Below are positions 7,710 to 34,500 of a DNA stretch of 64,000 nucleotides, piece by piece. A program made the translations under genes and the position numbers. The notes beneath the pieces are model-generated. The model did not search any database. It was not told where the DNA came from and saw only the letters and a program-made list of their open reading frames with translations. This DNA comes from Acanthamoeba lenticulata. Lineage: Eukaryota; Discosea; Longamoebia; Acanthamoebidae. How positions within the stretch are numbered: the first letter of the stretch is position 1; every line of letters begins with the position of its first letter. Where the stretch lies: NCBI GenBank assembly GCA_002179805.1, contig NAVB01000111.1, positions 19,739 to 83,738 on the forward strand. The letters are read 5' to 3'.

Positions 7710-9279
7710 CTATTCACAAATCTGCTCGGGGACGAAGAGGGCGGCCAGCTCCTGGTCGAGGCCCACGTTGAACTTGTGGAAATTCATGTGCGGCGCCGAG
7801 AGGTTGAAGTTGAGAATCTGCGAGTTGATCTTCTTCACCTTCCGTGCCAAACGCTCCTGTGTGGCCTCGTCCCGCCACACGCGGCTCTGCTCGAACCACC
7901 GGAGCAACGTCGTGGGCGTGACCTGCGTGCTCGTCGTCTCTGATGGGGCCTCCCTTGCCACTTTGTTGTCGACGTCTTGATTGTACGGCGGCAGGTCGCG
8001 CTGCCACTGCTTCTTCAGCTCCTTCAGGTCAGCCCTGAGCGCCTCGGTGGCCTCTTTGATGTCCTTGTCCAGCTGCAACCTGGTTGCATGCAGGGCGTCC
8101 TCGCCTCATCAGAAAACCTGCAGCCCTCCATGTGTGATGTACGCGGGGTCGGAGTACCAGTAGGGCAGGCAATCGTTGCGCTTCATCATGCGGTACATGA
8201 TGCGCGTCGTGCTGTCCAGATACGGGTTGTTGTACTCGGGTTGGTTGCACAGCTCGATCTGTGCAGTGCCAGATCAGTTGAGGGTCGTAATGCTTTTTAC
8301 TATTTTTTTTTGTTTGTTTTTTGTTATTTTTTTGTTTTTCTCATTATTTTTTTTGGTCGTACAAGATTCACGGACGAGCCGGTAAAGCTGTCCATCTCTT
8401 CGCGAATCTTTGCCTCGACGTAGCCGCCCCTGTGAATGAGAGGGAGGGTAAGAATGAGCCGCGCTCCAGCAACAAAAGTGTTCGAACCACTCGGCGAGCG
8501 ACTTGGGCCGTTGGATATCCTCGAGCCGCTCCTCGATGGGCTTCTTGTAGTTGACCACATCCTCCTTGGCCTGGAGAAGGAAACCGTGAGCTTAGCATCA
8601 TCGTCATCATCATCATCATGAGACAAGTCACCAGACACGGTTCTCTTCTTGCGGAGCAGAACGGACCCGCATGATGCGCACGGCGGAGACCTCCTTCTCG
8701 CGGACCGAGGGTGGCGTGCGGCGCGTGATGGGCAGATACTCGGCCGCCGCGTTCAGGAAAGTCCGCCGGAAGATGGGCTGCTCGCGTGTGCACACGCTCG
8801 GTGGTGAGCCGCACGAAGAAGAGGAGCTCGCTCAAGGGAAATCAAGCTTACCTTGTGCTCGTCGTCGGGCAGTGAGCGAGCGCTGCGCAAGTAGGAGGCG
8901 CTGCTGGAGCGATCGCCGAACCAGAGGACGTGCTTGGCCGCTTTCTTGATGTCCACCACCAAGGCTTCCATCTCCTTGACCAGATCCGAAAGCCCAGCGC
9001 CTTGATATGCATCATAAAATAAATACATGAAGATATTAAAACACTGATATATCTATAAATGAACCAAAAAAATAAAATAAAAATAAAAATAAAAAAGAAA
9101 CGAGTAGAGCACTGACTGAAGAAGGCTGCTTGCGGCTGGCGAGGGGTATCGGTGGTGATCTCGCCTTCGAACACTTCACCACGGGCCTCGATGTGTCGAC
9201 TCGCTGAGTGGTCATCTTGGCTTGTCTCCACCTCCTCCTGGGCCCGCGTTGTGGTGAAGACCATTTCCGCTTCCAGCAC
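7710..9279 (-). CDS. DUF1992 / DNAJC28-type conserved-domain protein (tentative)
   Basis: Spliced minus-strand gene with in-phase exons 9279-9117, 9000-8852, 8777-8667, 8570 to about 8508, then further exons to the stop at 7710. The first ATG gives MLEAEMVFTTTRAQEE. The middle reads GGYVEAKIREEMDS, then NNPYLDSTTRIMYRMMKRND followed by CLPYWYSD, then a charged helix DKDIKEATEALRADLKEL. This pattern (basic helix, an asparagine/proline turn, YRxMKxNxxxPxW, then a long helix) resembles the DUF1992 domain of DNAJC28 proteins, though the usual LPGKGKPL loop is not clear. There is no J domain here. The exon 4/5 junction is in phase only if the intron starts at gttcgaac, giving AEW-GGYVEAK. It is convergent with the upstream surface-protein gene (128-bp spacer). 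Function is unknown; the family link is moderate to weak. Confidence 0.4.
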
Positions 9280-10020
9280 GGTGGCTGTGTTCTCATCGTG
9301 GTCCGGGCGGCGCTGCGCGCGGTAGAGTGAGCTCTCGCTTCCGCGAGAAGAGTGAGAGAAGAAGTACCGCTTGACGATCGCCGTACGTGGCAGAGAACGT
9401 GCGAAGCGAAAGCGAGCAGTGGACTGACGTCAAGAGCGAAGAAGTTGACCTCCCTGGATGCAGAAGATGGAGATTCCGCGGGCAGGCGGAAAGGCGAGCG
9501 CCCGTCTGCTCATATCCTGTCTGTAGACGAACCCTTGTGGTCGCAAGAAACGTCTTGGAGGTGTGCATCTTTGTTGTGTTGCGTGGAGGGGAGGCGCTCC
9601 CATCCGCAGAGTTAAATTTCACCCGCAATCTCAAATGGAAACAAAGTTTGAGAAACAAAGAAATGTTGACGAACTTTGTTGTCGACAAATCAAGTTCCAC
9701 TTCTCCCATAAGCACGCCGGGATGCCTCTTCACGAAGCTAAAGGCGCCTTGATGCTGCTACCTATACCGGTGTGGTGCACCATGTCGCTGAGTTTCTTCG
9801 AGATATTTACCATCATCAACCCTGACTGTGATAGGAACACCTTCGGGCCCTCTGCGGCTACGAAAGTGCTCTACGCAACCTACTCATGACGCAACCACCA
9901 CACTTTTTCGCTTTTCTCAGTCCTTTTTTTTTGGAAAAATGAAAGTGAAATGTTTTAGCGCTCTAAAAGAAAAAGAGAAAAATAAGAGGTCTTATTTATT
10001 CTTACCGAACGAGGGGCCAC
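9280..10020. other. Divergent intergenic region, no gene recognised
   Basis: About 740 bp lie between two divergently transcribed genes. It contains several open frames on both strands, but none has a recognisable domain or a coherent ATG-to-stop exon chain. The last 100 bp are A/T-rich (ttttttttggaaaaatgaaa and an A-rich run) and likely hold the promoter and 5' UTR of the transporter gene. Nothing else is evident. Confidence 0.5.
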
Positions 10021-19401: not shown

Positions 19402-21592
19402 ATGAATGAAGAAGACGCTCACTCGCTCGACTCCACGGCAAGTGCCGAGTTCAACGCGGAAAGGTACGGCAACTACGATGCCACTCTTGACTCTTTGCTC
19501 AGTCACTTCGATCTCGCACACAGCGACTTCTCCCGGCTGCCCGCAGAAGCCCTGCTCCGGGTGCGCACGCCCCGCAAAGCAAACCTCCCTCTTCCCCACC
19601 TTCCTCATCGCTGAAGTGGAAGCGGCGGCGTTGTTCCCCAGGTGTTGGAGCTGCTTGACCGGAATGACCTCCTGCGCATGGGCGCTGTGTGTCGGGCATC
19701 ACTTCTCCTCTCTGAGGTAGTCGCCGTTCCACCGCTCATTTGTACCTCGCTCCAAGATGGTGATGATGATGATGAAGAGGACGATCAACGTTCAGGTGCT
19801 TATATCTTGTCCGCAATAGGACGATTCGCTGTGGCCGGCCGATGCCCGACGACGCGTCTTCTACCGGTGCACACCCGTCCACAACCTAACGATGAGATGC
19901 AACGTCGAGTCCTCAAAAGGGTTCCTTTTCCAATGGCTACAGGAGGTGGAGCTTCGAGCAGCCTCACCAGCCGCAGAACCCACCACAAGGGCAGAGCACC
20001 GCCATCACCAAAGGCGCTCTCGCCTTTCCACACGTCGGTACCCACTCGACTCGTTTGCGCTCGGAGGCGGGCGCAAAGACTGACCTGGGATGATGTACCA
20101 CGCAAGTGCTGGCAAATGAGGAGAGGGCCCGACTTGGCCTGCTGTCGGTGCTCGACGACACCTTGCGCGAGCTGCCCATCGGAGGCTCGGGTACCTGCAG
20201 TCCCCTGTGCCCAGCTGCCATGGTGTTGGTGGCGCGGCTCACCACCGGCGGTGCGCGGCGATACCAGGCCGTCTCGTCACATTCGCGAGTCATGGCTCGT
20301 TGCTGGTCTCGATCGTCAGCTTGCTCGACGATCACCAGGAGACGATTGTGGCCTACCTGCACGACCTGCGCCGCCCCATGCGGCCCTTCCTCCTCGAGCC
20401 TCAACTCGCGGCGGGACGCACGGACGGCCACTACTTGGACCGCTGCACGTGCGTGGCACTGAACCAGGAGAGCCGATACGTGGCGTTTGGCCACAGGGAC
20501 GGGCACGTCGATTGCTTCACCTTCCCAGAGGGCGTCATCCACGCCAGCACAGGCGATGATGATCATGGTGATGGTGGTGGTGGTGATGATGGTGACTCTG
20601 CCGAGCCACCGAGCTTTCGCTCATTGCCGCTGGTCCTGGAGCCTGCCCTGTGTCGACCACCGGGCCGCGCCCGGCTCAGCGCACTTCAACTCCTGGCCGA
20701 CTCTGTTGTCCAAGACGACGAGCAGCCAAACAAGCGGCTGCAGCCGCCAACGCCAACGCCGATCCTGCTTTGCGGCTACACCAATGGCCGAGTCGAGTTC
20801 TCGGTCAGCGCCGAGAAAAAGGACGAGGACGCCGATGCTGGTGTCCAGCGATTCCTGCTGGAGGAGGGCTGCTCGGTCGTGTGGCTGCACGCCGATCAGA
20901 CCCAAGTCCTGTGCGTGTGCAGGTCGCTCGTCGCGCTCAGCGGCGATTCGCTTCACATTCTGGTGCGCGCCAAGGCCAGACCGCGACCCTTCCAAAGCAA
21001 CGACGGTTGATTGATCGATCATCATCATCACCATTTTCGTGTGGCAGGAGAGGGACCCAAGTCGAGGTGCATCTTTCGTGAGCGGATGGGCCAGACGCTG
21101 TGTGCTGCGGCCAGGCAAGGGCCCCATCGTTGCCGCTCACTCGGCGCGCGAGTCCGACAGCGTGGTTCTTGCCTTTGCCTCTGGTGCGCTGACCAGCGCC
21201 TCTCTTGTGTTTGTCTTGATGGCGACGTGGAAAGCTCACAGCCTCTGGCGCGTGGAGCAGGGATCGAGGTGTGGAGCAAGGCCAGGCAGAGGATGTCAGT
21301 GTCAACGCCGCTGAGGGACGGCGTGTTGTCGATACACAGCGTCGGGAGCGTATCCTCCCTGCTCAAGGACGATCACTGGCTGTTGGCCCTCACCACGCGG
21401 GCGCTCTACCTCCTGCGCCTCTGCCACCCGCGAGTCGTGGCTGCGCCAGACCCGGACCCGGACCCGCGCGCGTTACGCCGTCCAGACAGACGTGCTGTCG
21501 ATGGAAGCTTCGACCACCGTTTCATGTCGTTGATTGATCCACGCACGCTCTACGGTCGCGCTGTGGCGTCTCGCCGTGGTCGGCCGTGGTGA
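19402..21592 (+). CDS. F-box protein with WD-like repeats
   Basis: ATG at 19402 gives MNEEDAHSLDSTASAEFNAE. The F-box is assembled across two introns: LPAEALLR / VLELLDRNDLLRMGAVCR-ASLLLSE / DDSLWPADARRRVFYRC, with all phases matching. It is followed by exons whose strands look like WD40 blades: FASHGSLLVSIVSLLDD, then CTCVALNQESRYVAFGHRDG and HVDCFTF, then ILLCGYTNGRVEFSVSAEK, then PIVAAHSARESDSVVLAFA-SGA and WLLALTTRALYLLRL. An acidic Asp/Gly run (20558-20600) coded by GAT/GGT repeats lies in a loop. It likely recruits a substrate to an SCF ubiquitin ligase via the F-box. The substrate is unknown. Exact exon edges after 20600 and the C-terminus are uncertain. Confidence 0.65.
20555..20600. 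repeat. GAT/GGT coding microsatellite
   Basis: gatgatgatcatggtgatggtggtggtggtgatgatgg encodes an Asp/Gly/His-rich loop in the F-box/WD-like protein. It keeps frame. Confidence 0.7.
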
Positions 21593-21770: not shown

Positions 21771-22446
21771 ATGTCAGCCATAGAGGAGGTCAAACAATTG
21801 AGCCAGTTCAAAAAGATGGTGGACAAGGAGCTGCATCAGTTCAAGCAGACCGAGTCCTTGTCGTCCTTTGCCTTTCCGCCCCTGAGCTCAGCGCAGTGCG
21901 ACGCCGTGTACGTACTTGCAACTGTGCCTACACGCCTCTTGCCCCTTGGGCTAACGGCTCACGTGGGTGGGGCGCACAGCCGACAATCCACCGACGAGCA
22001 CGGCCTGGGTCCCTTGGTGGAGCTGAAGGACGGCACTGGCCGCCTCGTCATCTGGAAGAAGGACCGCGTGCCCGCCAGCGAGCAAGACCGACAGAAGGCG
22101 GATGTCGAATCGCGCTTCGATGAACAGCATGAGTTCCTTCTGTGGGACGCCAGCCACGGAACTGAGACCCAGCCCCACACCAAGTGAGCCAATAATAAAA
22201 CCACACTGGAGCAACACCTCCAAATGGCCTTCTTGGCTTCCTTCCTGCAGGTCCTCGCGTCCCACAGGCAGCCGTTGGCGCGCAACCATTGAAGCATGGC
22301 ATGACCAAGGTTGCCTCCCTCAGCTGCTCAGTCCATGCGTCCCACGAACAGCTGTTCTGGCGAGCACGGACAGCTCTTGCACGCCACGAGCTCTCAAAAC
22401 AAGGAGCACAAAACTTGGTGGTGGTTCACTGAGAAGGTATCGTTAG
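21771..22446 (+). CDS. SPAG7-like R3H-domain protein
   Basis: ATG at 21771 gives MSAIEEVKQLSQFKKMVDKE, then LHQFKQTESLSSFAFPPLSS. After an intron (21908-21979) the R3H core reads AVRQSTDEHGLGPLVELKDG, then TGRLVIWKKDRVPASEQDRQ-KADVESRFDEQ. Order and spacing match SPAG7: a basic helix ending FKKxxxKExxxF, an F-P-aromatic turn, the R3H-type core, then KK-D/E followed by a polar helix. R3H domains bind single-stranded nucleic acid, so a nuclear or RNA-linked role is inferred. The C-terminus is unclear. Splicing at 22181 (gtgagc) keeps an open frame to 22446, but that tail is low-complexity and lacks SPAG7 resemblance, so the real end may be the TGA at 22185-22187. Confidence 0.65.
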
Positions 22447-22755
22447 AGCGCTTGACCCATGGGCGGGGCAGGCCGGCAGGCTTGCAAGTAGTTAACTGGA
22501 ACGCGAAATGAGCTCCGAGGTCCCGCACCCGCGGCCTGCTCGCCGGCAGAAGCTGGAGCGGGTTTCACCCGTGAGCATGAATCTTCCGTACCAAGGACGA
22601 AGAGTGACTTAGTGCTGTCGTCTTTTCTGTTTGCACCACAGCATTGGGCGCACGGCGGGTGAAGAAGACGTTTCTTTTTCCTTCGTCCAATCAGCGATTT
22701 AGAAGGCACCAATTAAAAAGCTCACAACAATAACACACCAAAACACACAACAACC
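22447..22755. other. Intergenic region upstream of the GH16 start
   Basis: About 300 bp hold no supported exon. The last 60 bp are CA-rich (aacaataacacaccaaaacacacaacaacc) immediately before the GH16 ATG, typical of a short 5' UTR. The GH16 promoter is expected here and is now separated from most of its coding sequence by the retrotransposon. Confidence 0.5.
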
Positions 22756-22801
22756 ATGAAGCTGAGCGGGAGCGTCCTGTTGGTGCTGGCAGTATTGGCC
22801 C
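22756..22801 (+). pseudogene. 5' fragment of the GH16 glucanase gene (signal-peptide start), cut by Copia
   Basis: ATG at 22756 encodes MKLSGSVLLVLAVLA, the basic n-region and first half of a signal peptide, and stops abruptly at the 5' LTR. The remaining half of the same hydrophobic core resumes after the 3' LTR ([13 protein letters not shown]). Reading into the LTR from this ATG gives a peptide of about 31 residues ending ...GPTVTKKVTS. So a transcript from the native promoter that is not spliced around the element would make only a short hydrophobic peptide. Confidence 0.85.
22797..22801. repeat. Target site duplication, left copy (GGCCC)
   Basis: The five bases immediately left of the 5' LTR match the five immediately right of the 3' LTR (27980-27984), as expected from Copia-type integrase. 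Confidence 0.9.
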
Positions 22802-23039
22802 TGTTGGCAGTGAGCGGACCGACGGTGACGAAGAAGGTGACTTCCTAGTGACCGACACTAGGAAGTGCACCTCCCACCAACGACAAGGGTCCGCCCTGGC
22901 GACAACCAATCATGCGCATTCATTTTATGTTAAAAAGGGAGAAAATCCCTATTCATTCTTCTTCATCGAATAAACACACCGTTCACACACACCCGACTGC
23001 CGCTGTCCCGTCCGCATCCGTTGGAAGTCCGGTCCAACA
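22802..23039 (+). repeat. 5' long terminal repeat (238 bp)
   Basis: It begins TGTTGGCAGTGAGCGG and ends GGTCCAACA, with 6-bp inverted ends TGTTGG/CCAACA. It contains an A/T-rich box (ttttatgttaaaaag near 22921-22938), a candidate TATA region, and AATAAA at 22969-22974, a candidate polyadenylation signal. By eye it is identical to the 3' copy over its length. Confidence 0.95.
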
Positions 23040-23052
23040 GGTTATGGGCCCA
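23040..23052 (+). other. Primer-binding site complementary to the anticodon region of initiator tRNA-Met
   Basis: The sequence GGTTATGGGCCCA follows the LTR with no gap. Its complement, TGGGCCCATAACC, is the conserved anticodon stem-loop of eukaryotic initiator tRNA-Met (CAU anticodon). Drosophila copia and yeast Ty5 are known to prime with such an internal, half-tRNA fragment rather than the 3' CCA end. Confidence 0.8.
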
Positions 23053-23111
23053 TCGTCACGCCTACACTAGAGCATAAGAACGATCCACCGACACCAACTA
23101 CCGCTTCAACC

Positions 23112-26100
23112 ATGAGCAAACGCTACAGCAAGCTCGTCATCCTCCAAGACGGTCGAAACTTCGACAGCTGGGATGGATACATTCGATCCGAGTGCACGAT
23201 CCAAGGCGTGTGGACAATCATCACCGGTCATGAACCGAGACCTCTTCCTCATCCCAAGGCACCATCGACGGGCATCCCCGCGACGAGAGCCAAGCCAAGC
23301 CCAACAGCGTCAAAGACGGGACCACCCGCTGCGACAAGCGAACAAGAGGCAAAAGAGGAGGAAGACAGGGACTTCAAGGAGGATCTGCAACCAAAGCAGG
23401 CAAAGGACAAGAGCATTCACAGCGATGACGAACAACTCGCTGAGCTCGACACCTCTCTGCTCTACGACAGCGACGACGAGGACGAAGTCAAAATCCACCC
23501 GAGGCTCGTCAGTCCGGCAGGAGTAATCCTGTCGGACCACTCGTCAAGTACCTCCTCACAGCTCCCTGGTGACGTCCTGAACGTCACCACCAAATTCGTC
23601 GGAGGGACCAGCCCCTTCGCCGACGACAAGGAGCGCAAGAAGAGGAAGAAGAAGATCAAGAAGTGGGACAAGAGAGCGCGGTGTGCTCTTGGCATCATCC
23701 TACGCTCTCTCCATCCCTCTCTGCTGCCCTACGTGGGGTCAGAAACGAACCCTCGCAAGGTGTACCTGGCGCTCTACAAGCGTTACAGGCCACTCACGCC
23801 GGGCTACCGCTTCCTTCTCTTCAAGCAGCTCATCGCGCTGAAGATGACCGGCCAGGACAGCGTCCACGCCTACATCGACAAGGCCACCGGCATCGCAGCA
23901 AAGCTACGCGCCAGCGGCGTCAACTTCGACGACACACTGGTCTCCCTGTGCATCATCAACGGGCTCACGAGCGATTACCGTCAGCTCCAGTCTGCGATTA
24001 ACACCGCAGGCGACCACATGCTGAACCTGGAGTGGCTCATCCAGTCCATCCTCCAGGAAGAAGCCACTATCAACAACGCCAAGGGCCAGGCCAAGCCCGA
24101 GTCGCAGCCGAACTTCGCTCTCACAAGCGAGGCTCACAACCACAAGAGTGGTAGAGGGAAGCAGGGCCAGAACAACAGCAATTCGACTCCGAAGGGCGAC
24201 CAGGGCGGTAGGGCGACTCCGGACGGGCCTGGGAAGACGTACTGCAGCCACTGCTACCGCACCAACCACACCGTCGATCAGTGCTGGACTCTTCACGGTC
24301 GCCCGCCTCGACCGGCCAAGAAGAAGACAACGACAACAGCCAACGTAGCGTCGACCACCGAGAGCGCGTCCGTCGCCAGAGTCATCTCGGCCCTCAGCAT
24401 GGGCAGCTCGGCCAAGGACCAGCACAAGTGGCTCTGGGACACCGGCGCCACAGCGTCAATGACGCCGTGCAGAGAGAATCTGCGCAACCTGAGCCCACTC
24501 ACCGAACCCCTCAAGGTGAGGCTCGGCGACGGCAGCTGCATCGACGCAAGCGAGAAGGGAGAGCTGCACGTGAGCATCAGCATCGACGGCGTCGACCAGG
24601 ACCTGGTCTTCCCCGACGTGCTCCACGTGCCAAAGCTTGGCCAGAACCTACTCTCTGCGCACGCCATCCTCAGCCACGGCTACAGCTTCAAGGGCAACGA
24701 GAACGGGTTCCTGGTCTTCAACCAGGAGCACAAGCGGCCGCTCCTACTCGGCCAGACCAGGAACAAGCTCAGCTACGTGCCTCTGCGAGTCGACCGAGGA
24801 CACGTCCAGCACGTGGCGCTGACTCATAAGGTCACCCCCGCAATCGACGACAACAAAGACGCGGAACCGGCCAGCCACGACGAGCCCGCCTCAACCGACG
24901 AGAAGCCCAAAGTAGTGCTCTCGTTAGACGAGGCCCACGTCCGCTTCGGCCACATCAGCGAAGACAGACTCCGCCGCCTCATCGCCAATTCGGCCGATCT
25001 AGCGCTGGAGACCGGCAGCACACTGACTCAGTGTGTCGCCTGTCTCCAGGCAAAGGCCACGCGAGCGCCCGTGAGGAAGGGGCCAGCGCCTCGTTCAAGC
25101 GTGCCGGGCGAGAAGCTCCACGTCGATCTGGTCGAGATGCCCACTCCATCCCTCACCGGCCGAACCTGGTTCCTCACCGTTGTGGACGATGCAACCAGAT
25201 ATCGGTTCCATATACCGATCAAGTCGAAGGATGAGGCCAGCGTCAAGATGGGGGACCTCCTCCGAGGCCTTCCAAGCAACATGCGCGTCACCGTCGTCCA
25301 CTCTGACTGCGGGGGCGAGTTCATCGGCGAACCTTTCAGGCGCGTCCTTGCCGACCGAGGCATTCGACTCGAGACGACACCGCCCTACACGCCCGAGTAC
25401 AACGGCGTGGCGGAACGATCCAGGCGCACCGTCGAGGAGATGGTGAGGGCTATGCTGACGCACGCCAAACTACCTCGCATTCTTTGGGCAGAGGCTCTCC
25501 TCATGGCCACCGCGATCATCAATCGTGCGCCCACTAAGGCAAACAGTGGGGCCTCCCCGTACCAGCTATGGACCGGTAATAGACCGGCCATGGCTGGGTT
25601 CTACGAGTTCGGAGCACACTGCTATGTGCACGTGCCTCGAGCGCTGCGCAACAAGCTCGACAGCTCGGCCAGGCCGGCGCACTACATGGGGCCCACTCAG
25701 GCTGGCTCTCACCACCACGTGTGGTACCCCGGGACCAGAACGGTCACCAAGAGCAGGAGCATCACGTTCGTGGCTACTGCCAGCACCACCAACGCGCCAC
25801 TACACGCCGAGCCGGGCGAGCAGCAGCCAACCGACCCCATCAGTGCCACCGACACAGAGCCGGTGCCGAGCGACTGGTCACCCGTCGAGCGGCCTAGCTC
25901 ACCGACTCTCTCTCACAAGGGGGGGGGGAGCGAAACTGAGCCAGACACCAACGTGCCAGCCTCGTTCCTCTTTCCTGAGAGAGGAGTCGTGAACCAGACC
26001 GAGGGCAAGCAGTCGAGTCAACAACTGACCACGACAAAGTCAACGGCCACGGCGACAAACACGAGGCAGAGCAAGAGAGAGCGAAAGGCAAGAGTGCGCT

Positions 26101-27788
26101 ACATCGAAGTGTGCCTGGCACACGTCATGGCTGCCATCGAAGAGCTGCCTGCCACGCCCACGTCCGTGGCCGAGGCCCTCGAGTCACCTCAAGGACCACA
26201 CTGGCTACGCGCCATTTACGAGGAGCTCGAGGCCCTGCACAAGAACGGGACGATGTACCTCACCGATCTCCCGCGCAACAAGAGAGTGTTGGGGACCAAG
26301 ATCGTCCTCAAGCTCAAGACGCTCGCCGACGGTCGACCCGATCGCTACAAAGCTCGAGTGGTCGTCCTCGGCTACCGCCAGCGCTTCGGCGAGGACTACT
26401 TCAACACCTACGCACCAGTCCTTCGCTACGAGAGTTTACGCCTCCTCCTTGCCTTTGCCGTACTGCACGACTTAGAGATTCACCAGATGGATGTCGAGGG
26501 CGCCTTCCTACAGGCCGACCTCGAGGAGGAGATCTACGTCCGTCCACCAGAGGGGTTCGCTGACGCCCAACACCCACACAAGGTGTGGAGACTCGTAAAG
26601 AGTCTCTATGGGCTCAAGCAGGCCCCGATGGTGTGGAATAAGAAGATCGACGGTGTCCTTCGTCACAATAACTACGAGCCGCTTCGCGCCGACGCCTGTG
26701 TCTACGTCAAGTGGCGAGGGGACCAGGTGGCAATCGTCGCACTCTTTGTCGACGACACCATCCTGATCTGCCACGCCTCACTACTCGAGGAGACGAAGAC
26801 GGTCCTCAAACAGGCCTTCCCGATGAAGGATCTCGGCGAACCCTCTTCGGTCCTGGGAATGGAATTCCTCAGGGACCGAGAGAAGGGACTCCTGAGCCTG
26901 CGACAGAGCGGACACATCGGCGGCATCATCAAGCGAGCCGGCCTTGAGCAGTGCAAGCCGAGTCCCACTCCGGCCGTTGAGGGGCTCAAGCTCGAGCAAC
27001 TCGAGAGCACTCCAGCCGACTACGCCGACAAGCCGTATCCCCAGCTTGTTGGCGCTCTACTCTACGTGGCGTGCACGACGAGGTGGGACATCGCCTACGC
27101 CGTTGCCTACCTCTGCCGGTTCAACCGGGCCTGGGGCAAGGAGCACTGGCAGGCGCTCAAGCGTGTGGTGCGTTACCTACACGGAACGCGCCACTACGCC
27201 ATTACCTACTCCAGGAAGGGAGTCAGCGAGCTGTGCAAGAAGCCCGTGGGCTATTCCGACGCCGACTGGGCCGGCGACACAAGCGACCGCAAGAGCATCT
27301 CGGGCTCAATCTTCCTCATGGCTGGAGGGCCAATCAGCTGGGCCTCGAAGAAGCAGAAGAGCGTGTCAGTCTCGTCCTGCGAGGCTGAGCTACTCGCGCT
27401 CTCCCAGACGACGCTTCAAGCCCTGTACCTGCGACGCTTCTACCAGCCTCTTCGCTTGCCAACGAACGAACCAACGCTCATCTTCACCGACAGTCAGAGT
27501 GCGATGGCCGTCAATTCCAGAGAAGAGAAGAGAGCCTTCCACGCCCGCCTCAAGCACCTCGACGTGCGAGCCCTTCAGATCGCCGACTCGACCGAGAAGG
27601 GGGAGGTGTCCCTCTGCTACTGTCCAACAGGCGAGATGATAGCCGACATCCTCACCAAAGGGTTGGCCACAGCCAAGTTCGAGAGTGTGCTGGACCTGGT
27701 CGGGCCAAACTGGACGCCACCGTCGACCACTCAAGGAAGGGTGTTGGCAGTGAGCGGACCGACGGTGACGAAGAAGGTGACTTCCTAG
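23112..27788 (+). CDS. Copia gag-pol polyprotein (intact, 1558 aa)
   Basis: ATG at 23112 follows a leader of only 72 bases. Gag: a UBN2/Ty1-copia capsid-like region (residues about 185-300, including ALYKRYRPLTPGYRFLLFKQ), then one CCHC knuckle CSHCYRTNHTVDQC (about 378). Protease: WLWDTGATASM with Asp443. Integrase: an HH-CC-type zinc region around HVRFGHISEDRL...CVACLQAK, then a DD35E core with Asp672, Asp732 and Glu768. Reverse transcriptase: MDVEGAFLQ (Asp1127) and FVDDT (Asp1214, Asp1215). RNase H: YSDADWAGD (Asp1383), SSCEAELLAL, TDSQSAM, and the terminal DILTKGL. No stop or frameshift between gag and pol, so ratio control must be by processing or splicing. The last codons run into the 3' LTR, ending VTKKVTS. 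A ten-G run at 25919-25928 lies in the linker between integrase and reverse transcriptase. Confidence 0.97.
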   Translation: MSKRYSKLVILQDGRNFDSWDGYIRSECTIQGVWTIITGHEPRPLPHPKAPSTGIPATRAKPSPTASKTGPPAATSEQEAKEEEDRDFKEDLQPKQAKDKSIHSDDEQLAELDTSLLYDSDDEDEVKIHPRLVSPAGVILSDHSSSTSSQLPGDVLNVTTKFVGGTSPFADDKERKKRKKKIKKWDKRARCALGIILRSLHPSLLPYVGSETNPRKVYLALYKRYRPLTPGYRFLLFKQLIALKMTGQDSVHAYIDKATGIAAKLRASGVNFDDTLVSLCIINGLTSDYRQLQSAINTAGDHMLNLEWLIQSILQEEATINNAKGQAKPESQPNFALTSEAHNHKSGRGKQGQNNSNSTPKGDQGGRATPDGPGKTYCSHCYRTNHTVDQCWTLHGRPPRPAKKKTTTTANVASTTESASVARVISALSMGSSAKDQHKWLWDTGATASMTPCRENLRNLSPLTEPLKVRLGDGSCIDASEKGELHVSISIDGVDQDLVFPDVLHVPKLGQNLLSAHAILSHGYSFKGNENGFLVFNQEHKRPLLLGQTRNKLSYVPLRVDRGHVQHVALTHKVTPAIDDNKDAEPASHDEPASTDEKPKVVLSLDEAHVRFGHISEDRLRRLIANSADLALETGSTLTQCVACLQAKATRAPVRKGPAPRSSVPGEKLHVDLVEMPTPSLTGRTWFLTVVDDATRYRFHIPIKSKDEASVKMGDLLRGLPSNMRVTVVHSDCGGEFIGEPFRRVLADRGIRLETTPPYTPEYNGVAERSRRTVEEMVRAMLTHAKLPRILWAEALLMATAIINRAPTKANSGASPYQLWTGNRPAMAGFYEFGAHCYVHVPRALRNKLDSSARPAHYMGPTQAGSHHHVWYPGTRTVTKSRSITFVATASTTNAPLHAEPGEQQPTDPISATDTEPVPSDWSPVERPSSPTLSHKGGGSETEPDTNVPASFLFPERGVVNQTEGKQSSQQLTTTKSTATATNTRQSKRERKARVRYIEVCLAHVMAAIEELPATPTSVAEALESPQGPHWLRAIYEELEALHKNGTMYLTDLPRNKRVLGTKIVLKLKTLADGRPDRYKARVVVLGYRQRFGEDYFNTYAPVLRYESLRLLLAFAVLHDLEIHQMDVEGAFLQADLEEEIYVRPPEGFADAQHPHKVWRLVKSLYGLKQAPMVWNKKIDGVLRHNNYEPLRADACVYVKWRGDQVAIVALFVDDTILICHASLLEETKTVLKQAFPMKDLGEPSSVLGMEFLRDREKGLLSLRQSGHIGGIIKRAGLEQCKPSPTPAVEGLKLEQLESTPADYADKPYPQLVGALLYVACTTRWDIAYAVAYLCRFNRAWGKEHWQALKRVVRYLHGTRHYAITYSRKGVSELCKKPVGYSDADWAGDTSDRKSISGSIFLMAGGPISWASKKQKSVSVSSCEAELLALSQTTLQALYLRRFYQPLRLPTNEPTLIFTDSQSAMAVNSREEKRAFHARLKHLDVRALQIADSTEKGEVSLCYCPTGEMIADILTKGLATAKFESVLDLVGPNWTPPSTTQGRVLAVSGPTVTKKVTS
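27733..27741 (+). other. Polypurine tract of the Copia element
   Basis: AAGGAAGGG directly abuts the TG of the 3' LTR, the expected position of the plus-strand DNA primer. It also lies within the pol reading frame. Confidence 0.75.
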
Positions 27789-27979
27789 TGACCGACACTA
27801 GGAAGTGCACCTCCCACCAACGACAAGGGTCCGCCCTGGCGACAACCAATCATGCGCATTCATTTTATGTTAAAAAGGGAGAAAATCCCTATTCATTCTT
27901 CTTCATCGAATAAACACACCGTTCACACACACCCGACTGCCGCTGTCCCGTCCGCATCCGTTGGAAGTCCGGTCCAACA
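27742..27979 (+). repeat. 3' long terminal repeat (238 bp)
   Basis: Same sequence as 22802-23039 by eye. It holds the pol stop codon (27786-27788), AATAAA at 27909-27914, and an ATG at 27852 that opens a frame running through the LTR edge into the GH16 coding sequence. Confidence 0.95.
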
Positions 27980-29599
27980 GGCCCTGGTCGTAGCGGCGCT
28001 ATTCACCCCCTCCGTGGAGGGCGCCTACACGCTCAAGTACAAGTATGCGGGCTACAACTTCTTCGACGGCTTCGACTTCTGGACCTATGACGACCCCACG
28101 CACGGCTACGTCAACTACGTCGACCGCAACACGGCTCAGTGTACGTTTTCCCTTCACGCTCGAGCGCAGGCCCCTTCCTCCTCTCCTCACGAGGCACATG
28201 TGGTCGCGACCACGTGCAGCCCAGGGCTACATCTCTGCCGGTCCGTACAACGTCTACATCGGTGCCGACCACAACAACGTGGCCAGCGGGCGCGGTCGCT
28301 CGTCCGTGCGGTTGAGCTCGAAGGCCACCTTTTCCGACGGCCTCGTCATCGCCGACCTGACGCACATGCCCGAGGGCTGCGGTGCGGGCCTCCTCCCCCG
28401 TTGCGCCTCGGGCGACGGAAAACTCACCGGAGGAGCGGGCCGACAGGCACCTGGCCGGCCTTCTGGTTGGTGGGCCCCAACTGGCCCAATGGCGGTGAGA
28501 TTGACATCATCGAGGGCGTCAACACCAACAACGCTGACCTGGTTCGTCCTCCCTCTTGGGGGGGCTGCTGATCAACGGTGGTTGGTGTTGTTTTAGTTTT
28601 TGCGTTTCTTTATGATTTATTTTATTGTGAATATTTTTAATATTATTGTTGGTTTTGGGTCCCACTAGACCACCCTGCACACGAGCCAGGGCTGCGACAT
28701 GAGCGGCGAGGACCGCAGCTCCTTCACCGGCAACATGATCTCCTCCAACTGCTGGGTCAACGCCCCCGGCCAGGGCACCAACCAGGTGAGGCTGGCTTGG
28801 CCCTCACTAGCTAGTCGGTGTCTTGCGTGTGCTCACCAACGTGGCACGGGCCGTGTCGGATGCGGGGCACAGGGCTGCAGCATCCAGAACTACGCCGGAA
28901 GCTACGGCGTGCCGTTCAACCAAGCTGGTGGCGGCGTTTACGTCGCTGGTGCGTGTTGTTGTTGTCTTCACGACACGACAAGCTTGACATTCCAACCGTT
29001 GTGTTATTTATTAGCTAACACAACCGACCAATTAGAATTCGGCCACGGCTGGCCCATCAAGGTCTGGTTCTTCCCTCGCAACAACATCCCCGCCGACATC
29101 AAGTCCGGCAACCCCGTACCCACCAACTGGGGCAAGTACGTGCCCCCAGTGCATTTTTATTTAATATTAACTTAATATTATTTTGCGCAAAATGCTCATG
29201 CGCGTGAGTGGTGGACCATCCTGCGAAGGCCTTATGCGCAGTTCAACATCGGCGACAACTGCCCGGCGCGTCACTTCTACGACATGCAGATCATCATCAA
29301 CCTCACATTCTGTGGTGACTGGGCCGGTACCGTTGCTTGAACTCGAGTTGAGCCAAATGAGGGGGAAGGATCACTGAGAAGGGTCTTCCTCCTCTCCTCG
29401 GGACAGGCTCGGTGTTTGGTTCGACCTGCGGACAGTACGGCTCTTGCAACAACTTTGTGCAGTACAACCCCAAACAGTTTGCGGACGCCTACTGGTACGC
29501 AGTTCCAATCATATCAAACCAATAGCGTGGTTTGAGTCTGACGCTGGGGCGGCCTGCAGGATCTTCAACTCGATCTCGGTTTATCAGTACCAGTTCTGA
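27852..29599 (+). CDS. GH16 endo-beta-1,3(4)-glucanase-like hydrolase, with possible LTR-derived start
   Basis: Host-derived coding resumes after the 3' LTR with [20 protein letters not shown], half a signal peptide and then the mature enzyme. Eight introns are all in phase; exons end or start at 28140/28220, 28381/28447, 28541/28669, 28785/28873, 28948/29036, 29135/29229, 29326/29407 and 29494/29560, with TGA at 29597-29599. GH16 motifs follow in order: [57 protein letters not shown] with IIEGVN (the E-x-D-x-x-E catalytic box, both Glu present), [28 protein letters not shown], and [10 protein letters not shown]. Length and fold order match fungal-type GH16 enzymes acting on laminarin or wall glucans. 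The native ATG lies 5 kb upstream. An in-frame ATG in the LTR (27852) could make a form with about 42 extra residues. Secretion of that form is doubtful. Confidence 0.85.
27980..27984. repeat. Target site duplication, right copy (GGCCC)
   Basis: It matches 22797-22801 and marks the exact integration point between codons for A and L in the GH16 signal peptide. Confidence 0.9.
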
Positions 29600-29975
29600 G
29601 CCCACCAAGCAGGCTGATGTGCTGGGTGGCTGCAACAAGAGATTGTGTTTTCCTTTCAACGCATTTTCTTTTTTTTTCTCTTTTGCTTCAAACAGACCCA
29701 ATCAATATTCCACAGTGACGCTGGTGCGTTACTGTGGGTGCTTGACAACGGGTAACGCTTGTTAGGTGAACCCTCGTAACTCCCTGCCTGTTAGGTGCGA
29801 TTCATTTGGTACTTGGGCTACACCGTCGCGGTGGACGACCTGACGCGTTGGTCCTTCTTCCTTTTTTTCTTTCGCTCGTCACTCCGCCCCTACCTGCAGC
29901 TGTCCGACGACCAACAAAAAAGGAAGACCAAAGAAGTGTGACAAGCGCAAAAACGACCTTTTCTATTCTCTGTGA
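29600..29975. other. Intergenic region between GH16 and the desaturase gene
   Basis: About 375 bp, with a T-rich stretch (29660-29690) that may be GH16 3' UTR and C/T-rich tracts near 29850-29890. No exon could be supported. It should carry the GH16 terminator and the desaturase promoter. Confidence 0.45.
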
Positions 29976-31386
29976 ATGGAATCACTCGCCATTACTTCAC
30001 GCCTTGCGGCGGACGATGAATCGTGCCAACACATCAATGCAAGAACCGCGACACAAGGGCGTGCGGCCACAGATCTTGGACTCATCAATCAAAATTGCGA
30101 TCCTGCGATTTCGACCAGACGGCCATCTACAAGCATCGATCTGACGCTGGCGCTGCCCTCCATGTCGCAGACCGTCCCAGAGGAGGGCCAGGAGTCCTCT
30201 GACGAGGGCGAGGACCGCTCCTCAGCCACAGACGTGGCTTGTGTGACTGAAGCAAAGACAGCAACGCCGGCCTGGAAGACACGGTCGCTGCAGCGCAAGC
30301 AGAAGGCGGCCTACCTGGCCGCGCAGTACCCGCCTGCCAAGCAGCGGCTGGACAAGGCCACCTCGTTCATCTACGGCTTCGTCATGCTGCGCCTCTTCTA
30401 CAACCTCCTCTCCTCGCTCTCCTCGGTCAGTTCCCTGGCCGTGATGCTCGCCTCCTTTGTGCTCGCCGCCCTCTGGGCCGACTTCGTGTCGGGCATGCTC
30501 CACTGGGCCTGCGACACCTACGGCTCCGTCAACACGCCCGTCGTCGGCAAGCTCCTCGTTCGGTACTTCCCCTATCATCTTGATCCTCCTCATCTTTTTA
30601 TGGCATTTAACATTCTTTTTCAACAATTCAAGATCGTTCCGCGAGCACCACATCGACCCGATGGCCATCACGCGCCACCCGTTCTTTGAGACCAACGGGA
30701 ACTCCATCCTCGCGACGCTGCCCATGGCCGTGGCGCTGGCCTTCCACCCGCCCACGGCCGCGTCGGGCACCTTCTACTACGCGCTTCTCTGCTTCCTCAC
30801 CAGCACCACCCTCCTCCTTTCCTTCACCAACCAGGTAACCTTCTCGTCCTCTCTCTTCTCTCGACGTGTGTGTCCTTTCGTCAGTTTTTTTATATTTATT
30901 GTGTTTTAATTTAATTTTGTATTCCACAGATTCACAAGTGGGCGCACTCGCACGAGCCGCCTCGGGCCATCCGTTTGCTGCAGAAGATGGGCGTCATCCT
31001 GGAGAGCAGGTACACTTTATTTATAAAAATGCCATTCATTTTATTTTATATTATTTTATTTGTGCCTTTTGCGTTTTTTGAGGCTCGTGTCTGACTCTTG
31101 TCTGATGCTGCAGAGCACACCAGAAGCACCACTTCAACCCCTACGACCGGGACTACTGCATCACGACGGGATGGCTCAACCCGGTCCTCGAGAAGCTGGG
31201 CTACTGGCGCGCCATCGAGCAGCTCATCGAGCGCTTCACCGGCGCTGTGGTACGCCCCATCCCCGCCCTCATCTCCATCTCTCTCTCTTTCTTGGCGCTC
31301 ACATGGTCCTCATGGACGCGTGCGCGCAGCCACGAAAAGACGACCAAAACTGGGCGCAGCCGGGCGCGGCTCCCAAGCTCGAGTAG
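29976..31386 (+). CDS. PEDS1: Plasmanylethanolamine desaturase (PEDS1/TMEM189, Kua family)
   Basis: Five exons: to 30560, 30633-30834, 30930-31009, 31114-31249 and 31330-31386, all in phase. The first in-frame ATG is 29976; a second (30162, MSQTVPEEGQESSDEG) is an equally plausible start. After a basic ladder KTRSLQRKQKAAYLAAQYPP, two hydrophobic segments precede DFVSGMLHWACDTYG. The His-rich di-iron ligands of the family follow: SFREHHIDPMAITRHPFFE-TNGN, IHKWAHSHE and HQKHHFNPYDRDYCITTGWL. The C-terminus is short and polar (PRKDDQNWAQPGAAPKLE). The enzyme puts the vinyl-ether double bond into ether lipids to form plasmalogens, using oxygen and cytochrome b5, in the ER membrane. The AT-rich introns at 30561-30632 and 31010-31113 are typical of this window. 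Assignment is strong because all His clusters are present. Confidence 0.92.
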
Positions 31387-31546
31387 GCCCGGGCTGGCGA
31401 GGCAAGGCTGGTCTGGAAAGCATTTTTTTGTTGGGGCTCACATGTTGTTGCGGGGCCATTGGTGGCCTTCCGAGCGGGAGGAAATGAAAAACACGACAAT
31501 GATGACGCTGTACATGCGTTCGGTGGTGGTGCATGGCATTCGCGAC

Positions 31547-34500
31547 TCAAAGGAAGGCGACGCCGGCGGGAACAGCGGCGGTGAGCTTGACGAGCTTGCC
31601 CACGCGACGCTGCACGTCGGCCTGACTGACGAGTGGACACCCGACCAAGCGCACGGCCAGCTTGCGCCGGGGCTGGGCGGCCGCGGCGCGCTTGAGCGTG
31701 TCGGCGATCTCGGCCGTCGTCACGCGGCTGCAGCCGCTGAGGTCGAGCAGACCGAGGCCGGGGGCCTTGGCCAGCAGGTCGGCGATGCCCGCGGCCGACA
31801 CGCCGCCGCAGCCCGCCAGTGACACGCTCTCCAGGTCGGGCAGCGTGCTCGGCAGGCGCGCCAGGAAGCCGTCCCCGAGGACCGAGTGGTCACAGCGCAG
31901 CGCGCGCAGGCGCGGCGCGACAAGGCGCACGCCGTTGTTGTCGTCCAGCTTGTTGCGCGTGAGGTCCAGCGCCGTCAGGTTGGGCGCGTGCCATTCGCGC
32001 CCCGCGCCGCCGTCGCTGCCGCTGCCGTCACACGGGAGGGCGAGGTCGGTAGCGTGGGCCGCCTGGAAGGCGCCGAGGTGGCTCCACCGCGGGCCCGCGT
32101 CTGTCCCCGCGGCCTCGGCGACCTCGGCCAGGCCCGAGCAGCGCGCGACGCACACGAGGCGGAGCCGCTGGCTGGCGCCCTCGGGCAGGTCGAGACGGGC
32201 CAACGACGGGCACGCGTCCAGCACGAGCTTCTCAAGCCCCCCGCGAGCCGTCCCGCCGTCCTCTGCTGGGCGCGGGAGCACGACGGTGGCCAGACGCGGG
32301 CACGACAGGACGACCACCGCGGCCAGCGACGGGCAGCCCTCGAGCATGACCTCCTGGGCGTGGTCGTTGGCACTGAAGACCAAACTGCGCAGGTTGGCGC
32401 AACTGACGCGGAGGGTGCGGAGCGTCGTGTGGGACAGCACGAGGCAGCGCAGGTGGGCCGACGCGATCGCCGCCACACGGAGATCCACCCGCGACAGCTG
32501 CAGCACGCTGAGTTTCGACGTCTGTTTTGTGCGTGTGCGTGTGCCGCATGAGCGTCATCAGACGGGCGTGGAGACGCCGTGGGTGCGTACCTTGACGAGT
32601 TGAGCAAAGCGGACGGCCGGGCAGTGCTTGCGGTGGGATGAGGTCCAGCCGTCCTTCTCGCACTCGACGCTGCAGTAGGAGACCTGCCCGCACCCTGTGT
32701 GTGTCCCGCGTGAGCGCCAGCGCCGCTCGCGGGGAGGAAGAAGCACGCGCGCGCGTACAGAGGCACTTGACCGAGGCCGGAACCTTGTGGCGCGTCATGA
32801 CGATGCTGTTGGGGCCTGTGTTGCCCAACTGGCTGCCTTTCTCGCCACTCTCGCCGTTTTTGGCGGGAAGGGCAGCCTTGGGCACCACCGCGAACGAAAA
32901 CGACTTGTGCCGCGCGAAGCCGTTCCACGAAGAGGAAGCCCTTGTGGCGCCCTCGTGAGGCGCGACCGTGGCCTGTTCAGGCTGGCGATCATCTTCGTCC
33001 TCGTCGGTGCTGTCTATCTCTTCCACTTCGTCATCGTCATCAATCGTTATCACGTTTTTGCTCTGCGGTGTCTTGCGCTTTGCCGTCGTCGGCCTCGGCG
33101 TAGTCGATGTCGCGGGCGAGCTGCGGCCGCGGCTTGGCAGGCTGAGCCACCCGGCAGGCAGCCTCATGCCTGGGGTGCCGCCGTCGATGGTCAGCGGCTG
33201 ACGCCTGCCGTCCGCCGGCTTGGTGGGCGTGTCGGGCTGCGATGACGTCAGCCGAGTGACCTTCGTCGTCGTCTTGGCCGTGGTGACGCTGCGGCGCGCG
33301 CCGCAGTGCGCGCAGCCGGCGGCCTCGGGCATGGTGGTGGCAGAGGAGCGAAGCGTGCAGTGGAGGCTGCCAAGAAGCAGCCGGCGCAGCCGGCCCGCCC
33401 CGCCGAGCAGCCGCTCCAGCAGCTCGATTGTCACCTCCTCAAGGTCAGCAGCGACGCCGACCCGCCCGTCGGCGCCCATGCCGCGGATGGCCATGGCGCT
33501 TGGGCTCTTGGTGAGCTGACGCGGCGGCGGCGACACGCCGGTCAAGTGCTGATGCACGTCGCTCGCAAAGGCGACGAGGTCGTGGCTGTCCTCGAGCCGC
33601 TTCCTGAGCTTCTTCCACGATCGCTCGAGCTCGAGGCTGCGCAGCGGGAGCAGGCCATTGTCCAGCGCCGCCACGACGTGCTCCAGCAGCGCACGGCTGG
33701 CGTGGAGCGGGCCTGACCTGCCGCGCAGCTGCAGCTTCTCGAGCACCGAGCACTGGTGGTCCCGCAGGAGCGCTGCCAGGATGCTATTGGCAGAACCGGT
33801 CGTCGCGCCGTCGGGGTCCTCCACCCGCAGCGCGCTGCACGCCATCGCCGCGACAGGCTCGTGAGCAAGCAACTCGGGATAGCAAAGGTGGCGGCGGGTC
33901 CGTACCGAAGGCGCGGGAAGACGGCAGAGAGCGACAGAGACGGCAGCGGCGGCAAGGCGCCTTCTGGCCGAGAGCCCATCACGACGCGCAGCTTCTCCAC
34001 CTGAGAAAATTGCCACGATTGGTCCTCCTGCTGGCGTCGGTTATGGTCTTTTGCCTCGACTCGCGCCGGACGCGGATCCCGGTGATTGACGCGTTCACTA
34101 CGATCCTGGTCGGCGTCGGCTCCCCACAAGCGCTCGATGTCGCGCCACTGCGCCTCGACGCCATGTTCGCCATAGGCGACATGGCCACCAAGCTGGTGTT
34201 GTTGCTGTTCGTGCTGTTCGTGCTGCTCAGACTCGTGGGTCCGCCCACGATCCTCCTCGGGTTGTTCTTCCTCCTGATCCAGGCATCGGGCCAACAGGTC
34301 GTGGAGCGTCGACATGTTGACCCGGAGCGTGGCCAGGCGATCGCATCGGCGGAGCGCGCGCAGCACGTCGCCCGCGGGCATCCCCGAGCTGTCGAGTACG
34401 CGCAGGGCGCAGCCAACCTGGGGCGGGAGGCTCGCGAGGCCGGGCACAGCGAGCACCTCCAAGCTGCGCTGGCCGATGCACTGAGCCAACGAGTCCGGCC

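Follow-up and report, generated by a model that had tools for sequence, protein, structure and literature searches.

A close described counterpart of the insertion reported here is Evelknievel, a copia-like element in exon 13 of Arabidopsis CMT1 that was shown by cDNA to be spliced out (PMC6238269). Like ours, it is a single copia-like element lying within a coding exon, with a target duplication starting with GG (GGCTG there, GGCCC here) and an LTR end that together with the first duplication base can form an AG acceptor; it differs in that splicing was demonstrated there by cDNA, the frame-keeping variant using a GC donor in the duplication, whereas the donor considered here is a GT inside the LTR, predicted from DNA. 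Some introners of Aureococcus add 12 nt (four residues) upon splicing according to the account in PMC9860276, and a 12-nt addition is also possible for our element; however, in Aureococcus 4 nt come from the introner and 8 from the duplication, and the introners are short and exist in many copies, whereas here we are dealing with a 5.2-kb retrotransposon of which one identical copy was seen. Among the matches listed in a literature search on Acanthamoeba we found no paper devoted to copia elements.

The locus was found in a 64,000-nucleotide stretch of Acanthamoeba lenticulata DNA (the window, equivalent to C101:19739-83738) taken from an assembly of 1825 contigs and 48.48 Mb. All positions below are those of the window unless a contig is named.

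A complete copia element in exon 1 of a GH16 gene

Exon 1 of a gene for a GH16 beta-glucanase contains a complete Ty1/copia retrotransposon, oriented in sense. The preliminary description of this DNA had given 22756-29599 as the coordinates of the insertion; these delimit the gene as a whole, from its ATG to its stop codon, but not the element proper, which occupies 22802-27979. The features of the locus are as follows.

22756-22801, + strand: GH16 exon 1, 5' piece, with the ATG (22756) and the beginning of the signal peptide; its last bases are the target duplication (from translation)
22797-22801: target-site duplication GGCCC, 5' copy
22802-23039, + strand: 5' LTR, 238 bp, TGTTGG...CCAACA
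22810-22815, + strand: candidate splice donor GTGAGC, from LTR nucleotide 9, in phase 0 of the GH16 frame (score 2.2)
23040-23060, + strand: primer-binding-site-like stretch GGTTATGGGCCCAT..., by its position after the 5' LTR
23112-27788, + strand: gag-pol frame, 1558 aa, with its stop inside the 3' LTR
27733-27741, + strand: purine run AAGGAAGGG directly before the 3' LTR, a polypurine tract by position
27742-27979, + strand: 3' LTR, same sequence as the 5' LTR
27979-27980, + strand: candidate acceptor made of the last LTR base and the first duplication base, CAACAG, phase 0 (from the splice model)
27980-27984: target-site duplication GGCCC, 3' copy
27985-28140, + strand: GH16 exon 1, 3' piece, with the remaining signal peptide and the start of the mature enzyme
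28220-29599, + strand: GH16 exons 2-9 (intron 1 is 28141-28219; the stop is 29597-29599)

The two LTRs, which have TG and CA ends and start 4940 bp apart, were identical at 238/238 positions, so that the identity reported earlier from their appearance stood when they were aligned (0/238 differences). Gag-pol, which had been called intact, is a single open frame, and the last base of its stop codon is nucleotide 47 of the 3' LTR. Pfam searches of this frame recovered Retrotran_gag_2, Pol_BBD, rve, SH3_retrovirus and RVT_2, which is the copia order: the gag is of the copia type (Retrotran_gag_2, E 8.2e-24) and the integrase (rve in 25071-25799, E 3.3e-12) lies upstream of a copia-type reverse transcriptase (RVT_2 in 26205-27005, E 5.3e-68), while the last piece of gag-pol (27003-27788) gave no family match in Pfam. 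The TG...CA LTR pair and the 5-bp target duplication are likewise those of Ty1/copia. The element therefore resembles Ty1/copia LTR retrotransposons in the order of gag, integrase and reverse transcriptase, in its LTR ends, in the length of its duplication and in its single frame, and departs from them in the location of the gag-pol stop inside the 3' LTR; we found nothing else unusual about it.

Directly 3' of the 5' LTR, the 14 bases GGTTATGGGCCCAT were also present in 6/6 other copia elements for which a 5' LTR was read (C1070, C1086, C595, C239, C1269 and C231). This stretch is a candidate primer binding site, which may pair with initiator tRNA-Met. When the LTR was searched against the assembly, we saw outside the element at least one full-length copy (C765, 79% identity) and at least three stretches of 45-62 bp, and no second identical copy was found elsewhere in the assembly by this search, in which all counts are lower bounds. 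No relatives of the reverse transcriptase piece were confirmed in a scan of viral_contigs, a collection that may omit records of this genome.

The interrupted gene

The frame from the gene's own ATG reads MKLSGSVLLVLAVLALLAVSGPTVTKKVTS, 30 codons in all, and then meets a stop within the 5' LTR, and the hydrophobic core of the GH16 signal peptide resumes past the 3' LTR; the split of the signal peptide by the element and the GGCCC duplication on its two sides (22797-22801 and 27980-27984) are thus as the preliminary description had them. It had also proposed that the frame through the signal peptide could be restored, and indeed each duplication copy ends on a first codon position (22801 and 27984), which puts the exon 1 halves in phase (a match with a probability of one in three by chance).

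On the 3' side of the element the exons are undamaged, again in agreement with the earlier claim: between 27981 and 29599 there are nine exon pieces, separated by eight GT-AG introns of 65-127 nt, and together they encode an open product of 311 aa. In a PDB comparison, residues 23-307 of the 311 aligned with solved GH16 glucanases (E 4e-84), and the E-x-D-x-x-E catalytic motif was kept, GEIDIIEG aligning with GEIDIIEG. We conclude that the interrupted gene encodes a GH16 beta-1,3(4)-glucanase whose activity is predicted. Like the GH16 beta-1,3-1,4-glucanase (PDB 3wdt-3wdy) and the laminarinase (2cl2), it shows alignment of nearly the whole domain together with GEIDIIEG; unlike them it is an amoebal gene with eight short introns. 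The enzymes of 3wdt-3wdy and 2cl2 are fungal. The top database relative of the product was 88% identical and has a hydrophobic leader at its start, and such leaders precede the same domain in six relatives (by eye). Pfam assigned no family to the GH16 protein or to two of its relatives; the protein search annotated PF26113 on relatives. GH16-like exons were seen on 18 contigs; by eye these form nine pairs of look-alikes, which makes redundancy likely.

Next to the GH16 gene, from about 30162, is a gene for a plasmanylethanolamine-desaturase-like protein, the top match of which is in A. castellanii Neff (76% identity). On the other side, the - strand at 22204-22365 holds a decayed piece of a 27-residue repeat (MLQWLRANGCLWDARTC...), with 134 more matching stretches genome-wide; we assume this repeat to be ankyrin-like.

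A second gene copy and the age of the insertion

Contig C1301 carries a second copy of the 3' part of the gene, with window 28171-31039 matching C1301:9289-12126 (the contig end) at 94.5% with gaps. Between the two, exons differed at 4/776 aligned bases with 0 gap columns, introns at 29/609 with 73 gap columns and downstream sequence at 33/1417 with 30 gap columns, and the 4/258 codons that differed were all synonymous (4/4). The chance of seeing 0/238 LTR differences would be 0.0006 at the pooled non-coding rate (62/2026) and 0.004 at the downstream rate, from which we infer that the element probably inserted after the two gene copies split, barring LTR conversion or assembly collapse, since LTR identity can alternatively come from gene conversion or from repeat collapse in the assembly. 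That the insertion is recent, as had been proposed, is consistent with the lack of LTR differences, the clean 5-bp duplication, the open gag-pol and the 0 non-synonymous changes in 258 comparable codons.

We considered C1301 as an empty allele, but it was unusable for this purpose: the match to the window begins at 28171, inside intron 1 and 3' of the insertion point, and lacking exon 1 it neither shows nor excludes an empty site. The fresh knockout or heterozygous allele put forward in the preliminary description would both be possible states of this locus. Upstream of 9289 this contig carries protein-kinase exons, two pieces of which matched Pkinase (E 2.4e-7 and 2.7e-6, neither reaching the curated cut-off), and within 9200-9330 the last kinase exon continues in frame via the intron 1 remnant into GH16 exon 2; either the contig is chimeric at this join or the two genes are truly fused. 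Another GH16-like pair, C1741 and C747, was 94.8% alike over 3127 columns, which is comparable to C101 and C1301, and the similarity within these pairs suggests two haplotypes. Some loci of the assembly hold two similar copies and others do not: assembly searches with window segments 22202-22801, 20300-21500 and 31060-32060, and with the C1301 kinase stretch, found no second copy of similar length and identity, so we regard the assembly as mixed.

Other copia elements in the genome

A genome search for the reverse transcriptase gave 32 matches, and LTR pairs were sought at eight places (C101, C1070, C239, C595, C1086, C1269, C918 and C1413). Pairs were found at 6/8 of these (the first six named), and none was found at C918 and C1413. 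Coding sequence was interrupted in sense by four of the six paired elements, namely in the GH16 gene, a ubiquitin protease gene, a Rap-GAP gene and at C595 (the last by eye only). In A. castellanii, exons and introns together amount to about 80% of the genome (PMC12344493), so genic insertion sites are to be expected; the same source states that younger LTR copies are preferentially methylated.

The lineage of the window element includes another young copia element, on the reverse strand at C1070:20500-30400. Its LTRs were identical at 291/291 positions, its target-site duplication is GGCGC, its reverse transcriptase piece was 73% identical to that of the window element, and it has GTGAGT at LTR nucleotide 9. 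This element interrupts, in sense orientation, the catalytic domain of a ubiquitin-specific protease: UCH profile positions 142-162 were matched before it (by a 24-aa part, weakly, E 0.0044) and positions 166-231 after it (E 3.8e-10), while the 99-aa ubiquitin-protease piece upstream of the element had no Pfam match at 0.001. The copia element at C239:47300-55300 (reverse strand), with a repeat identical over the 143 bp found and the duplication ACATC, lies within a Rap-GAP domain, which it divides between profile positions 64 and 65. On the - strand of C231, 1125-1414 is a 5' LTR of a sister subfamily; the gag region behind it contains stops, and the flank upstream of the LTR is near the end of a kinase domain. 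C765:9297-9551 is a solo LTR, 79% identical to that of the window, between the imperfect duplication CATGG/CATGC; it has GTGAGY at nucleotide 9, but no G after the LTR end.

Consequences for the gene and alternative explanations

The explanation that we favour, and that we consider probably correct, is a recent insertion of a complete copia element in GH16 exon 1 that split the signal peptide and left a copy which is most likely a null or strongly reduced allele. The Ty1/copia retrotransposon integrated in sense, duplicating GGCCC, and the gene's own start codon now reads only 30 codons. A transcript starting in the 3' LTR past the TATA-like box, where we place its putative start point, would not meet an in-frame Met until residue 103 of 311, in exon 2 (28366 in the spliced reading, by hand count), and the resulting product would be missing both the signal peptide and roughly the N-terminal third of the enzyme. 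The short native product and this late Met together make a null or strongly reduced allele the most likely outcome. The only GH16-frame ATGs in the 3' LTR are at 27852 and 27867, both before the TTAAAAAG box near 27870; for this reason we consider a full enzyme from LTR-driven expression unlikely, although transcription starting upstream of 27852 could give an N-terminally extended protein. Other GH16-like loci (about eight by eye, with predicted function) might compensate, and a partial rescue through splicing out of the whole element may be possible.

This last proposal, which goes beyond the preliminary description, is that the whole element is removed as an intron with the frame kept and a signal peptide four residues longer, giving a detectable rescue; we judge it unlikely. 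The predicted splice (22809/27981) would remove an intron of 5171 nt and leave 8 nt of the LTR and 4 nt of the duplication in the mRNA, and since these 12 nt are divisible into whole codons the frame would be kept for any insertion phase. Both candidate sites are in phase 0. Scored with a model built from the gene's own eight introns only, the acceptor was the best of the 16 AGs at 27742-28130, and 4.7% of 3800 window AGs scored as high; the donor, however, scored only 2.2, whereas the eight host donors reached 6.7-10.7 under this model (1.5-9.5 when each was left out in turn, with one of the eight then below 2.2), 23% of 3595 window GTs scored as high, and it ranked eighth of the 18 GTs from the ATG to the 5' LTR end, behind seven higher-scoring ones. 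A frame-neutral GTRAGY starting within the first 24 nt arose in 0.7% of 20000 shuffles in which TGTTGG was kept and the remaining LTR shuffled. Two of the better-scoring GTs lie in the LTR, at 22825 and 22837; they too are in phase 0, and their use would add 27 or 39 nt without disturbing the frame. GTGAGY stands at nucleotide 9 in all four of the lineage's LTR loci whose start was read (C101, C765, C1070 and C231; a fifth LTR, on C208, is partial, lacks its start and was left outside this count), and the C1070 element, in its ubiquitin-protease exon and with its duplication GGCGC, has the same splice-site layout; against this, GTGAG doubles as the coding end of gag-pol near the LTR terminus, so that its conservation has other possible causes. 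Precedents exist in the frame-keeping variant of Evelknievel, which makes up 25% of its splicing events and uses an AG formed in a closely similar way in the account of PMC6238269, and in ONSEN insertions in genes, which are often spliced out according to what PMC12112155 reports of them (mostly intronic insertions, with an exonic case as well). On the other hand, the host introns of the GH16 gene are 65-127 nt long, the LTR carries an AATAAA, and the same donor with a like acceptor would form a rival 231-nt intron within the 5' LTR, the product of which stops nine codons later.

We also considered a broader form of this proposal, in which the lineage has evolved intron-like ends, with GTGAGY at LTR nucleotide 9 serving as the donor and, as the acceptor, a CAG that takes its G from the start of the duplication, so that 12 nt are always added; this seems to us very doubtful. 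As a general property of copia elements in this genome, built-in splicing was unsupported, as GTGAGY was at nucleotide 9 in only 2/6 paired elements (C101 and C1070). The duplication starts with G in three of the six (C101, C1070 and C595). A different view would make the insertion a passenger in a GH16 gene that was already dispensable or decaying, and the likely redundancy among the look-alike GH16 loci speaks for it; yet the GH16 exons are free of stops and frameshifts, the catalytic motif is kept, and not one amino acid differs from the second copy across the 258 codons, which leaves this view a slim chance. Least credible of all is an assembly error, either unrelated pieces joined together or an element misplaced through copy collapse. 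An assembly in 1825 contigs with two similar copies at some loci, and with a C1301 join that may itself be chimeric, makes such an error conceivable, but it would have to produce an exact 5-bp duplication with matching codon phase on both sides, the leaders are present in relatives, and no other identical LTR copy was found in the assembly.

Significance

The insertion in GH16 exon 1 is a clear case of a well-known type of event, to which the splicing question is a slight addition, and it shows cleanly how a young copia element has struck an enzyme gene in a gene-dense amoeba genome. If intron-like ends were indeed a property of this lineage, it could occupy exons with little harm, even in genes for housekeeping enzymes like the ubiquitin protease; LTR-LTR recombination would then leave behind a ready-made intron of about 231 nt, and an LTR retrotransposon would be a source of new introns.
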